Made by a program: the position numbers and the translations under genes. This document shows, piece after piece, positions 8,466 through 21,361 of a stretch of DNA of 24,870 bases (positions within the stretch are counted from its first letter, which is position 1; each line of letters begins with the position of its first letter). The stretch spans positions 1-24,870 of the IMG/VR virus record IMGVR_UViG_3300042507_005102. The stretch is one strand, 5' to 3'. This DNA is from a virus. The notes under the pieces were generated by a model. It worked only from the letters and a program-made list of their open reading frames with translations, was not told the DNA's origin and ran no database searches.

Positions 8466-9683
8466 TTAAATAGATACGATAGAGTTGTGGCGCGGCCTTG
8501 CGGCTAAATTCATAACCGCCCAATAGCGCACCGCGTCAAGGGCGTGATCGTCGCTACTGCTCGGCTCCTGAATGGTCTTACCCGTGGCGCTATGCAGCTT
8601 CCATTTGTACTGCCGAAACTCGCGGTTCAGGTTGTAGCCGATTGCCCGAATAGGGTATTGGGCCAGCGTTTGGATGCCGTACAGCACGGAACTCGGCCCC
8701 TTCTTAGCGGCCGCGACGTTAAAGCCATTGCGCCGCAGTTCGGTAATCATTTCGGGCCGGGCCGCGTCGGCCCAAATAGGCAGCCGCCGGGATACGTTCA
8801 GGTCTTTCATTTTAGCCGTAAGCGCGGCCATGGTTAGCCCGCTTTCGTAAATCAGTTCCTTGCAATAAATCGTTTCACCGTGTTCGCAGCACTCCACCAA
8901 AGCCAGCGGGTCGGTGTAACCAAAGTCCAGCCCATAGCCTAAACGGCGGCCACCGTCGGGGAATTCCACCCACGGCTCGACGCGCTGGTAAATCAGGTTC
9001 TCGGTGCCCCCCGTGCGCCCTTCAGCGTACACGCGGCGGAAGTTTTCGTCACGCGCGGCGCGCTCTTCGATGGATGCGCGGACCTGCTCCGGCAAATATG
9101 GGTTGTCAAGGTATGTGGTCCGGCAGAATGTCCCGTCGGCCAACGCTTGCGCCCGATAAAATTCGTGCGCCCAGAACGGCGTATCAGGGTTGTAGTCGAT
9201 AATCGACACGACAGACGTGCGCATCTTCAGTTGGCTAAAAATCTCGTGCCCGATGCCCTGTGCTTCGTTGACAAAGAGAATGTCGCGTTTCCCAGCCTTT
9301 GCGTCTTGCGCCGTTTCGTATGATGTGAACTGGATTTTGGCCCCGTTCGTGAACAGGTATTCTTTATCGGTCCGATGGTAGCGTTCGATATGCCGCTCGA
9401 AGGCCTCGGCGATGCGCTCCGCATCCAACAGCGCCCCCTTCTTAAGGTTCGGCACGTCCTGCCCCACCACCGTGACCACCGTGGGCTTCTTATTCACGGT
9501 CGGGTTCAGCACGCAAAAAGCGAACAGGGCTTGGATAGTCGAATAGGTTTTGCCAGACGATGTACCGCCCTGCAGTATCAGCACCGGGACGCGCGCATAA
9601 CCGCCGCGCACGGCCTTATCCATGCGCTCCCATACCCACGCAAAGATGGGCGATGTATTGATTTCAAGGGCGGCGGCACTCAT
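8466..9683 (-). CDS. terL: Phage terminase large subunit
   Basis: The packaging motor ATPase and nuclease, 405 residues from ATG 9683, which overlaps the DUF3310 stop as ATGA. A longer in-frame start at 9716 exists but would run into that gene. Visible motifs are Walker A GGTSSGKT (residues 39-46), Walker B-like DILFVNEA (about 134-141), the nuclease acidic motif GLDFGYTDP (about 251-259), and the C-terminal DDHALDAVRY with its conserved aspartates. The C-terminal half has the ordered blocks (IWADAARPEMITELRR, then the Lys-rich segment) of the PBSX/Terminase_3 family RNase H-like nuclease. It acts with the small subunit to cut and load concatemeric DNA into proheads. Confidence 0.95.
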   Translation of the reverse strand: MSAAALEINTSPIFAWVWERMDKAVRGGYARVPVLILQGGTSSGKTYSTIQALFAFCVLNPTVNKKPTVVTVVGQDVPNLKKGALLDAERIAEAFERHIERYHRTDKEYLFTNGAKIQFTSYETAQDAKAGKRDILFVNEAQGIGHEIFSQLKMRTSVVSIIDYNPDTPFWAHEFYRAQALADGTFCRTTYLDNPYLPEQVRASIEERAARDENFRRVYAEGRTGGTENLIYQRVEPWVEFPDGGRRLGYGLDFGYTDPLALVECCEHGETIYCKELIYESGLTMAALTAKMKDLNVSRRLPIWADAARPEMITELRRNGFNVAAAKKGPSSVLYGIQTLAQYPIRAIGYNLNREFRQYKWKLHSATGKTIQEPSSSDDHALDAVRYWAVMNLAARPRHNSIVSI

Positions 9684-9892
9684 GGCAGGGTATCGATGTG
9701 GTGTTGGATGTACCAAATGGCTTTTTGCAGGTCTTCCCGCTCCTTTGCCGGGTCTTTCTTCCCGGCCCTGGCGATGTACTTGACAGCGTTACCAAGGGCA
9801 AAGCCCAGCCGCCAGGCGTCGATTACCTTAATCGCCTCGTATGCGTTGGCAGAACCGCCGTAGTGCGGGGGATTGTTCACCGGGTCAGTCAT
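9680..9892 (-). CDS. DUF3310 domain protein
   Basis: A 70-residue protein starting MTDPVNNPPHYGG. The pattern of NPPHY near the N terminus, then LGFALGNAVKYIARAGKK, then EREDLQKAIWYI is characteristic of DUF3310, a small domain found in many phages and sometimes annotated as a nucleotide-kinase-like protein; its biochemical role is not settled. It overlaps the upstream small-terminase-like gene by 8 bases and the downstream terL by 4, so it is embedded in the packaging operon, an unusual place for a protein usually grouped with nucleotide-metabolism genes. Confidence 0.88.
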   Translation of the reverse strand: MTDPVNNPPHYGGSANAYEAIKVIDAWRLGFALGNAVKYIARAGKKDPAKEREDLQKAIWYIQHHIDTLP

Positions 9893-13905: not shown

Positions 13906-14757
13906 TTAGTTTTGTTCGGGTTCAATCGGTGGCCGCTGGTCAAAGGTCTGGAAAAACGCGCGGTTTTTGGCAATAAGCGCAATCGCGTAAAGCCGTTTAT
14001 AGTGCTTATCCACGTCGCCGGGGTTGGTATTCATCGCGTCCATTAACGACGTGAACCCAAGCGTGTTTTTGTCGCGTTGATACTCCAATTCTTCGGCCCG
14101 TGCCTCGCCCGTCGCCTTATTGCGAAGGTCGGTTTTTTCCTCCGCTGTTATGTCGGCAATCATTTGGCGGCGCAAAAGTGGCGTCATGAACTCCAGCCAC
14201 CACCAGTGTGCCCGGCGGCCCTTCGGATTTAGTGCATACTGGGTAATATTCCAGCGGCTAAATTGCTTTTCCTTCGGCTTCCATTCGAGCGGATTGTGGT
14301 TTTGCCCGGCAGAGGCCTCTTCCAACTGGCCCAAAAATTCCACGTTGTTGATTTCCCGGTCTCGGGCTGCGATAATAGCCACGCGCTGGGTTTGCTGGTA
14401 GGCGGTCAGAACCCGGCTAAAAATTTGCGGTGTTGGGCTTTGCCCCAGCGTCACCTCGGGCAGGTCGCCGTTCGAGGCGAACCCAAACGCCGAAATAACC
14501 TCATCGCACGAAAGGCGGTAGAACTTATCGCGTAAAACCTGAACAATAGCGTTCTGCATGCCGAGGGCCACGTCCGGGAACTGGAAGAACGAGCTGCACA
14601 CTTGGCTAACAATTTTGACCAGCACCATGTCGGGCTGTTCTTCGATTTTTTGCCCGGGACGTGAGGCCAAAGCGTAGGCCTTGACGGCGTTAACGGGCAC
14701 CCGTGCGCCCTGTGCGACATTGCGGACGAAACTGTCCTTAAATTTGTAAGTACTCAT
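13906..14757 (-). CDS. Replication-module hypothetical protein
   Basis: A 283-residue protein starting MSTYKFKDSFVRNVAQGAR; its ATG overlaps the replisome organiser stop as ATGA (14754-14757). It is mostly helical, with a basic Trp-rich block near residues 170-200 (KQFSRWNITQYALNPKGRRAHWWW) and a charged helix near 210-235. There is no Walker A motif, so it is not a DnaC-type ATPase loader. The tight coupling to the organiser suggests a partner role in initiation such as helicase loading, an inference from context. Confidence 0.75.
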   Translation of the reverse strand: MSTYKFKDSFVRNVAQGARVPVNAVKAYALASRPGQKIEEQPDMVLVKIVSQVCSSFFQFPDVALGMQNAIVQVLRDKFYRLSCDEVISAFGFASNGDLPEVTLGQSPTPQIFSRVLTAYQQTQRVAIIAARDREINNVEFLGQLEEASAGQNHNPLEWKPKEKQFSRWNITQYALNPKGRRAHWWWLEFMTPLLRRQMIADITAEEKTDLRNKATGEARAEELEYQRDKNTLGFTSLMDAMNTNPGDVDKHYKRLYAIALIAKNRAFFQTFDQRPPIEPEQN

Positions 14758-15896
14758 ATTCCAAAATAGGGTTTATAATTAATGACTTGGTGAATATTTC
14801 GGGCTGTTCGAAGCTCGTTTTGCAGGTCAATTTCGCGAAGGGCCGAAAGGTAGGCAGGATCCGCTAATTGCGGGTTCAGATGTTGCTCCATGCCGGGATG
14901 CGCGATTAGCTGCGCTTTTATCATGTCGATTTTGCGTTGGTCTTTTTTTTCGTACCAGCTCCCAAACTGCTGGCCGTTCGGCAAAATGATCTGAAGACCG
15001 TCGGACTGGCTTTGCGGAACCAGTGCGGCCGACATATCGCCCGACGCATTTGCGGCCAACTGAAGGCTTTTTTGTGCGCTATACGCCTTCTCAAGATAGC
15101 CGGGAAACTTGTTAGGCCGCGATAGGGTCTCCGGGTTTAGGTATTTGTGCATTTCTGGGTTGTTTTTCCAGTCGGCGGCGCGGTGTTCGATTACCATTCT
15201 GAACTCCTCCTCCGTCCCTTCTTTTGTTTCCAGCACCCGGGAAATGTATCTGATGTTCGTTTTGACGTGGCGGAACGCGGTACCAGCGACGGCGTTTAGG
15301 TGGTCGATTAGCCGACAGGCAGCCTCGGAAAAATCTGGCTTTTCCTTTTTTGGTTTTTGAGAAGGCGCGCTTTCTTTTTCTTCTATCTCTCTTCCTTCTA
15401 TCTCTGTATTTTCTATCTCTTTATATTCTATCTCTATATTGCTGGCATGGTTTGTACCACCTAACTGGTCTTTTTCATGCACCTTAACTGGTACATTTTG
15501 TGCCACCTGACTGGCTTTTTTTATGCCACCTAACTGGCTTTTTTTATACACCTTAACTGGTACATTTTGTGCCACCTGCTCGGCAGAAAGGGCAACCAAA
15601 ACATCGGCCGTCAGCGGTGCCAACCGGAAGTGTTTGCGGTAAAACGCGCCGCGAATATCCACCATTACCAGCTCGGCCGCTTGCAACTTATCAATGGCCG
15701 CCTGAATAGCCGTCCGGCTCAATCCGGTTATGGCCTCCAGCATCTCGCGCGTGGCGTAAAACCAGCCGTCCGCATCTTCGTGCATCTCGGCGATGTTTGC
15801 CAGTTCGCTGTAAATCCACATGGCATTAGCACCGAACGCGCGACCGATTTCCGGCCGAACAATGCGAAAACCCGCGATGTTTTTTGCGTCCTTCAT
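14754..15896 (-). CDS. Replisome organiser / replication initiation protein
   Basis: A 380-residue protein from ATG 15896 (MKDAKNIAGFRIVRPEIG). Residues about 20-90 form a winged-helix DNA-binding domain with the turn ITGLSRTAIQAAIDKLQ. Residues about 102-172 are a low-complexity linker encoded by DNA repeats: QVAQNVPVKV twice, then EIExx pentapeptides. Residues about 185-265 match the conserved phage C-terminal domain Phg_2220_C (LIDHLNAVAGTAFRH, KYLNPETLSRPNKFPGYLEK), typical of replisome organisers that recruit the host helicase. The in-frame extension to 16037 is rejected because it crosses a promoter and leader hairpins. The gene itself appears to contain the origin, as in lambda O. Confidence 0.88.
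   Translation of the reverse strand: MKDAKNIAGFRIVRPEIGRAFGANAMWIYSELANIAEMHEDADGWFYATREMLEAITGLSRTAIQAAIDKLQAAELVMVDIRGAFYRKHFRLAPLTADVLVALSAEQVAQNVPVKVYKKSQLGGIKKASQVAQNVPVKVHEKDQLGGTNHASNIEIEYKEIENTEIEGREIEEKESAPSQKPKKEKPDFSEAACRLIDHLNAVAGTAFRHVKTNIRYISRVLETKEGTEEEFRMVIEHRAADWKNNPEMHKYLNPETLSRPNKFPGYLEKAYSAQKSLQLAANASGDMSAALVPQSQSDGLQIILPNGQQFGSWYEKKDQRKIDMIKAQLIAHPGMEQHLNPQLADPAYLSALREIDLQNELRTARNIHQVINYKPYFGI
15381..15435 (-). repeat. Four 15-bp AT-rich repeats (candidate DNA-unwinding element)
   Basis: TTCTATCTCT (plus strand) starts at 15381, 15396, 15411 and 15426, an exact 15-base period. The five-base spacers vary. The stretch is strongly pyrimidine on the plus strand and purine on the minus strand (AGAGATAGAA). 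It directly follows the 23-bp repeats in the direction of transcription, as the AT-rich region follows the iterons in lambda ori. Confidence 0.8.
15434..15583 (-). repeat. 23-bp iterons inside the replisome organiser gene (candidate origin)
   Basis: Units begin at 15457, 15480, 15503, 15526 and 15549, each 23 bases; a degenerate unit begins at 15572 and a more degenerate one at 15434. The shared core is CCACCT(A/G)ACTGG or CACCTTAACTGG followed by an 11-base T-rich arm. Units 15480 and 15549 are identical. The period of 23 is not a multiple of three, so the repeat is kept at DNA level while the encoded peptide repeats only every 69 bases. Iterons next to an AT-rich region in the initiator gene are the hallmark of lambdoid-type origins. 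Confidence 0.78.
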
Positions 15897-15902
15897 GGAA
15901 AT

Positions 15903-15935
15903 AAAAAAGGGGCCAACGCTCCTACACGTGGCCCC
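15903..15935 (-). terminator. Terminator-like hairpin just before the replisome organiser start
   Basis: On the minus strand GGGGCCA (15935-15929) pairs with TGGCCCC (15915-15909), with a 13-base loop, and is followed by TTTTTT (15908-15903). The ATG at 15896 comes only six bases after the T run. A terminator here would stop transcription before the initiator gene unless prevented, so it may be an attenuator. Confidence 0.6.
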
Positions 15936-15938
15936 ATT

Positions 15939-15993
15939 ACAGAGTTGGGGGGTAACCCTGTGGGATGTCGTAGGTAGGAGGCAACGACGTCCC
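15939..15993 (-). other. Two leader hairpins upstream of the replisome organiser
   Basis: Hairpin 1: GGGACGTCGT (15993-15984) with ACGACATCCC (15971-15962), ten positions with one C-A mismatch on the minus strand (a G-U pair if read from the plus strand), loop TGCCTCCTACCT. Hairpin 2: ACAGGGTT (15961-15954) with AACTCTGT (15946-15939), including one G-U pair, loop ACCCCCC. CTCCTAC in the hairpin 1 loop is complementary to GTAGGAG in the terminator loop. Confidence 0.5.
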
Positions 15994-16084: not shown

Positions 16085-16152
16085 TGAGGGGGGAGGGACT
16101 TGAACCCCCAAGAGCGGCCATAGCCGAACGCTACCTATACGTGTCCCCCTTC
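16085..16152 (-). tRNA. tRNA-like sequence with shortened anticodon arm
   Basis: The T arm is canonical: stem GGGGG/CCCTC with loop TTCAAGT (16109-16093). The acceptor 3' strand CCCCCTC (16092-16086) is followed by A (16085), with no encoded CCA. It pairs with a 5' strand GAAGGGGG (16152-16145) that has one extra A, to be read as a bulge or mismatch. A short D-arm-like hairpin ACG-TATAGGTAG-CGT follows. Only 18 bases then remain before the T stem, enough for CGGC-TATG-GCCG but not for a 5-bp stem with a seven-base anticodon loop. The U8 position is not T. No anticodon can be assigned. It may be a degenerate tRNA, a tRNA mimic, or an attachment-site remnant. Confidence 0.55.
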
Positions 16153-18946: not shown

Positions 18947-18980
18947 ATTTTGCAAAATATTTTTGCAAAATATTTTTGCA
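18947..18980. promoter_or_regulatory. Tandem palindromes, candidate operator next to P1
   Basis: A 13-base unit TTTTGCAAAATAT occurs at 18948 and 18961, and a half unit TTTTGCA at 18974. Each centre is a palindrome; ATTTTGCAAAAT (18947-18958) is perfect over 12 bases. The array abuts the -33 element of P1 on its upstream side. A related site is found at the same spacing beside the promoter at 21281-21311. Confidence 0.6.
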
Positions 18981-21314: not shown

Positions 21315-21341
21315 TTTTGCAAACTTTTTTTTCAAAAATTT
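21315..21341. promoter_or_regulatory. Operator-like TTTTGCAAA site in the divergent region
   Basis: TTTTGCAAA (21315-21323) lies at the same distance upstream of P2 as the first palindrome lies from P1. A degraded second unit (TTTTTCAAAAA, centred 13 bases further) follows. The site is between P2 and the rightward promoter, so one protein bound here could affect both directions. Confidence 0.5.
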
Positions 21342-21361
21342 TTTACTGTCATTAATCCGCG

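Follow-up and report, generated by a model that had tools for sequence, protein, structure and literature searches.

Six phased 23-bp direct repeats followed by an AT-rich tract lie within the coding sequence of a phage replication initiator gene. In our view, this stretch is very probably the replication origin and is bound by the product of the gene that contains it, with the 23-bp repeats serving as iterons and the AT-rich repeats as unwinding element. Selection at the DNA level was found in relatives of the gene, and sister phages carry a module of like build outside the gene. The window, i.e. the whole stretch of DNA that was analysed, is an IMG/VR virus record of 24,870 bases. Within the window, the initiator gene belongs to an operon-like run with genes for RecT, an exonuclease, a MazG-like protein and SSB (Pfam/PHROG), and the SSB, RecT and exonuclease neighbours were counted as support for an origin. 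The features discussed here are the following:

13906-14757, minus strand: next gene, 283 aa, overlapping the initiator stop by 4 bp; candidate helicase loader
14754-15896, minus strand: initiator (replisome organiser) gene, 380 aa (PF09524, phrog_428, AlphaFold model)
15093-15308, minus strand: Phg_2220_C C-terminal domain, residues 197-268 (PF09524; high-confidence helical model)
15379-15440, minus strand: AT-rich tract of four 15-bp repeats (AGAGATAGAANNNNN; TRF); candidate DNA unwinding element
15441-15578, minus strand: six 23-bp putative iterons, consensus TARGTGGCAYAAAAWRTRCCAGT; five strong and one, beside the AT-rich tract, weaker
15556-15578, 15533-15555, 15510-15532, 15487-15509, 15464-15486 and 15441-15463, minus strand: the individual 23-bp units, in codon phases 0, 2, 1, 0, 2, 1
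15621-15854, minus strand: winged-helix N-terminal domain, residues 15-92 (AlphaFold, weak HTH_36 match); presumed iteron reader
15897-15950, minus strand: leader with a GGGGCC...GGCCCC hairpin and a T-run (these two at 15897-15939), ending directly at the initiator ATG

The repeat array and the protein encoded around it

A sequence-only reading of the window had proposed seven phased 23-bp iterons without drift. The phased repeats are real and the absence of drift was confirmed, with direct repeats in fixed phase at spacings of 23, 23 and 23 bp and a TRF call at 15457-15577 (period 23, 5.3 copies). Their number is six, five strong and one weaker, since the earlier count had cut the same units in another register, in which the rows at 15434 and 15572 are partial. 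A two-unit pattern matched four times in the window and never in 100 dinucleotide shuffles. With a profile built from the five strong units, these scored 31-35 bits and the sixth unit 19 bits, compared to 12 bits for the next-best site in the window. The strong units are 57-83% identical to their neighbours, while units 1 and 4 are identical throughout. Significant dyad symmetry was not found in the units of the window; among the arrays tested, p ≤ 0.01 was reached only for those of loci L017 and L043. The iteron pattern was absent from all other viral contigs scanned. The GC skew of the window has no clear inflection at 15.4 kb, which counts neither for nor against an origin there.

The six units make up 138 bp, or 46 codons, and encode the linker between the winged-helix and Phg_2220_C domains. 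As the sequence-only reading had stated, the period is out of step with the codons; successive units fall in phases 0, 2 and 1 and the encoded peptide (AQNVPVKVxxKxQLGGxxxAS) recurs with every third unit, hence every 69 bp. Adjacent strong units, which are always read in different frames, share 63 of 92 positions (p about 1e-16). A tandem duplication at the protein level, yielding two 23-aa repeats devoid of DNA function, would agree with the higher similarity of the 69-bp copies (82%) compared to the 23-bp copies (64%). Yet the units inside each 69-bp copy resemble one another across three frames, which selection on the protein cannot yield, the linker is predicted to be disordered, and relatives hold a like DNA array outside the gene. 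A duplication of this kind is already contradicted and we assign it almost no probability.

The AT-rich neighbour of the array, likewise noted before, consists of the four 15-bp units at 15379-15440 and abuts the array on the gene's 3′ side. According to nearest-neighbour stability, positions 15380-15439 rank as the least stable 60-bp segment among all 24,870 bp of the window, and the tract also provides its least stable 40-bp stretch. Phased direct repeats and an adjoining, easily melted AT-rich tract constitute the layout of an iteron-type origin, and both are present here. Among the coding homologues inspected, the reading frame did not separate the AT-rich motif from its peptide; the DNA-level argument for this motif therefore rests on the out-of-gene copies in two relatives (L009 and L011, see below) and on synonymous constraint.

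The initiator matches PF09524 (Phg_2220_C) above the gathering score (3.5e-17; 62.7 bits vs a cut-off of 27) as well as phrog_428, replication initiation protein (1e-24), and misses the TIGR02220 cut-off (41.6 bits vs 66.65, E 1.2e-10). In the AlphaFold model, residues 11-90 have pLDDT values mostly of 86-97 and the order H-H-H-H-E-E. Linker residues 112-176, encoded by the array and the AT-rich DNA, are predicted to be disordered (pLDDT about 36-44). The Phg_2220_C domain is presumed to be the replisome-recruiting part. The 283-aa product of the next gene, conserved at 44-46% in L009 and L011, had no Pfam, PHROG or NCBIfam match and its structure model was too poor to interpret (pLDDT 40); judged by gene order and position, it could be a helicase loader.

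Taken together, we infer a mechanism in which the winged-helix domain would bind the six units, phased at intervals of about 2.2 turns, and the bound complex would stress and open the AT-rich tract. The C-terminal domain and the product of the next gene might then bring in the replicative helicase, and the linker peptide would be mostly a by-product of the DNA.

The leader hairpin has a DNA fold z of -3.0, is conserved in the relatives (L009 2890-2952, L011 2885-2934; alignment) and, together with the T-run, looks like a terminator or attenuator. A fitting Rfam family was not found for it, and Rfam gave 0 matches at the gathering threshold. A tRNA-like sequence at 16085-16151 on the minus strand of the window reaches 26 bits on the Rfam tRNA model (cut-off 29) and is missed by ARAGORN, which called tRNA genes upstream of the initiator in L009 and L011. 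Two similar 13-bp tandem repeats, at 18948-18980 and 21315-21344 (TTTTGCAAAATAT, TTTTGCAAAAATT), are partly palindromic, each situated in a gap between larger open frames, and are possibly regulator sites.

A like module outside the gene in the closest relatives

Among independent relatives, L009 (which has a near twin, L010) and L011 are the closest to the window. Their initiators are about 45% identical to that of the window along most of the length, and the gene order is the same. The linkers are shorter and lack repeats. Instead, arrays of about six 23-bp units each were found upstream of the initiator gene by TRF, at 2583-2714 in L009 and 2586-2698 in L011, ending 111-188 bp short of the initiator open frame. 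As in the window, the repeats are followed by an AT-rich tract, here the least stable 60 bp of each 7-kb locus, and then by GCGCG. The upstream stretch contains stops in every plus-strand frame and no recognisable gene; long minus-strand frames in both loci are spurious. The units of L011 and the window have the core CACAAAAYGTA in common and differ in the remaining sequence, and the 9-mer ATAGAGATA occurs in the AT-rich tracts of both. Two of the six units at 2558-2698 of L011 have, in place of the inner ACAAAACGT, the exact reverse complement ACGTTTTGT between unchanged flanks.

Between the window and these relatives, the architecture of the module is kept, but neither its position nor the linker peptide is, which we read as a sign of DNA function. 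It is quite possible, if somewhat short of probable, that the origin is a portable cassette, made up of six 23-bp iterons, AT-rich repeats of about 65 bp and GCGCG, which has moved between upstream non-coding DNA and the coding linker, in a PF09524 family in which linker-embedded iteron origins appear usual. A single cassette may have changed place, or two may have arisen independently.

Initiators often repress their own genes, and the array might mainly provide initiator-binding sites for autoregulation or copy control, as an operator or incompatibility array, with replication starting elsewhere. The upstream arrays, ending so close to the initiator open frame in L009 and L011, would suit such a role. 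We regard it as unlikely for the window, where more than 300 bp of the gene precede the array and the adjoining AT-rich tract is the least stable DNA of the locus, which fits an origin and not an operator.

Linker arrays and synonymous constraint in the family

Profile-guided scans yielded 126 loci, phages and the window included, of which 69 remained without near duplicates; these 69 genes do not all stand for separate lineages. No relatives were found when viral contigs were scanned with a single protein, one scan of genome contigs returned distant relatives only, and the first alignment, of eight members, was too diverse for use as a search query. Arrays were detected by self-comparison at periods of 9-26. 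In the 69 non-redundant loci, 42 arrays were located in 20.4 kb of linker zones, compared to five in the 378 kb elsewhere, two of which are the upstream arrays of L009 and L011. The array density in initiator linkers is thus about 150-fold that of the rest of the loci. Dinucleotide shuffles gave 0.025 arrays on average, and there were none in codon shuffles.

Half of the linker arrays have a period that is not a multiple of 3, so that periods out of codon step recur in homologous linkers. Periods of 22 or 23 bp occurred ten times (never in shuffles) and 11 bp four times, near whole helical turns. Other linker arrays keep the frame, with periods of 12 and 15 bp, and include some of the AT-rich tracts; with multiple-of-3 periods in about half of the linker arrays, linker repeats are not in all cases iterons. 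Of 60 genes, 46 had their least stable 45 bp in the 200 bp that precede the C-domain, while 14 were expected. In L091 and L121-L124 (Chryseobacterium and other Flavobacteriaceae), Phg_2220_C starts a short separate open frame that does not include the winged-helix part, and no linker array was found.

Tandem repeats also mark packaging, partition and recombination or transposase sites, so the array could have another DNA function as a packaging start, partition site, or recombination or transposase site. This appears very unlikely given the concentration of arrays in initiator linkers, the distance of 5.7 kb between the array and the terminase gene (8466-9716), and the lack of partition genes noticed nearby. 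An origin inside the initiator gene remains the preferred reading.

The sequence-only reading had further predicted that homologues should keep the DNA of the linker repeats while the linker amino acids vary, and the outcome was mostly favourable. In two well-sampled clusters, one of which holds enterobacterial phage mEp390, codon columns with synonymous variation were depleted in the array plus AT-rich zone (cluster 1, 13/66 vs 163/233 outside, p 2e-13; cluster 2, 10/63 vs 156/249, p 1e-11); these p-values are somewhat optimistic because the hand-drawn zones followed the arrays and were fixed once the profile along the gene had first been viewed. Amino-acid-variable columns were commoner in the zone (29/67 vs 44/244 in cluster 1; 20/63 vs 50/257 in cluster 2). 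Two smaller clusters were depleted in synonymous variation too (p 2e-5 and 0.01, obtained with the same kind of hand-set zones). The constraint stems from homologue clusters that do not include the array of the window itself, since none of the close relatives found has iterons in that linker.

The PF09524 domain is widespread among phages and provides a set of predicted, testable pairs of origin and initiator. One phage has its module within the gene and the relatives have a like one outside, a natural control for asking why so many initiators contain an origin of their own. Caution is advised with alignments of such linkers at the protein level, as they reflect DNA constraints.

Comparison with known origins inside initiator genes

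An origin within the initiator gene is of a known kind. What may be new, judged by the open literature searched, is that the position of the module differs between close relatives and that the arrangement extends broadly across PF09524, a domain described as 'functions unknown' (PMC4490491); no paper on iterons in PF09524 genes was found in that literature.

In pLS32-type RepN plasmids, the origin consists of iterons inside repN (PMC4490491). According to the same review, this family is without the AT-rich region that the window has. In the case of P1 RepL, oriL is located inside repL and synonymous changes in an A/T-rich stretch harm replication (PMC9948254). Both P1 and the window have the origin, presumptive in the latter, in the initiator gene; the two are not known to be homologous, and the passages of that source consulted report no P1 iterons.

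The sequence-only reading had likened the layout to lambda ori in O. This holds for the anatomy, with iterons and then AT-rich DNA inside the linker and the next gene overlapping by 4 bp, and fails for the protein, which falls outside the lambda O family. In lambda, four iterons in the middle of the gene precede an AT-rich tract on the gene's 3′ side, the same order as in the window (PMC7466680, PMC5043065). When the same measures were applied to lambda O, the annotated iterons fell in the linker and were immediately followed by the least stable 45 bp. O and P overlap by 4 bp, as do the initiator and the next gene here. The lambda iterons start 20, 24 and 23 bp apart and are inverted repeats for dimers, whereas the six units of the window keep a strict 23 bp and lack significant dyads. 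The initiator had no match to Phage_rep_O (PF04492), to which lambda O itself scores 6e-36, and no BLAST similarity to lambda O; a PHROG named O-like matches it weakly (3e-7).

The gene for pSK41 Rep, a RepA_N protein, contains four Rep boxes centrally and its linker is encoded by the origin (PMC5703833). The protein is built like that of the window, with an N-terminal winged helix, an origin-encoded linker and a C-terminal recruiting domain (PMC5703833), the last presumed in our case. The best PDB fold matches of the N-domain are RepA_N initiator N-domains (4pql, 5kbj and 4pt7), a resemblance that is suggestive only at E about 2e-3. Pfam detected no RepA_N domain in the initiator, and PDB profile matches stayed at E 0.05-0.065. 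Unlike pSK41 Rep, the initiator of the window combines this weak fold match with the lack of a RepA_N family match and a C-terminal Phg_2220_C domain, and it belongs to a phage and not a plasmid. With no sequence membership in lambda O or RepA_N, the initiator is, as far as sequence comparison indicates, like lambda O and pSK41 Rep in anatomy, yet part of a separate initiator family.
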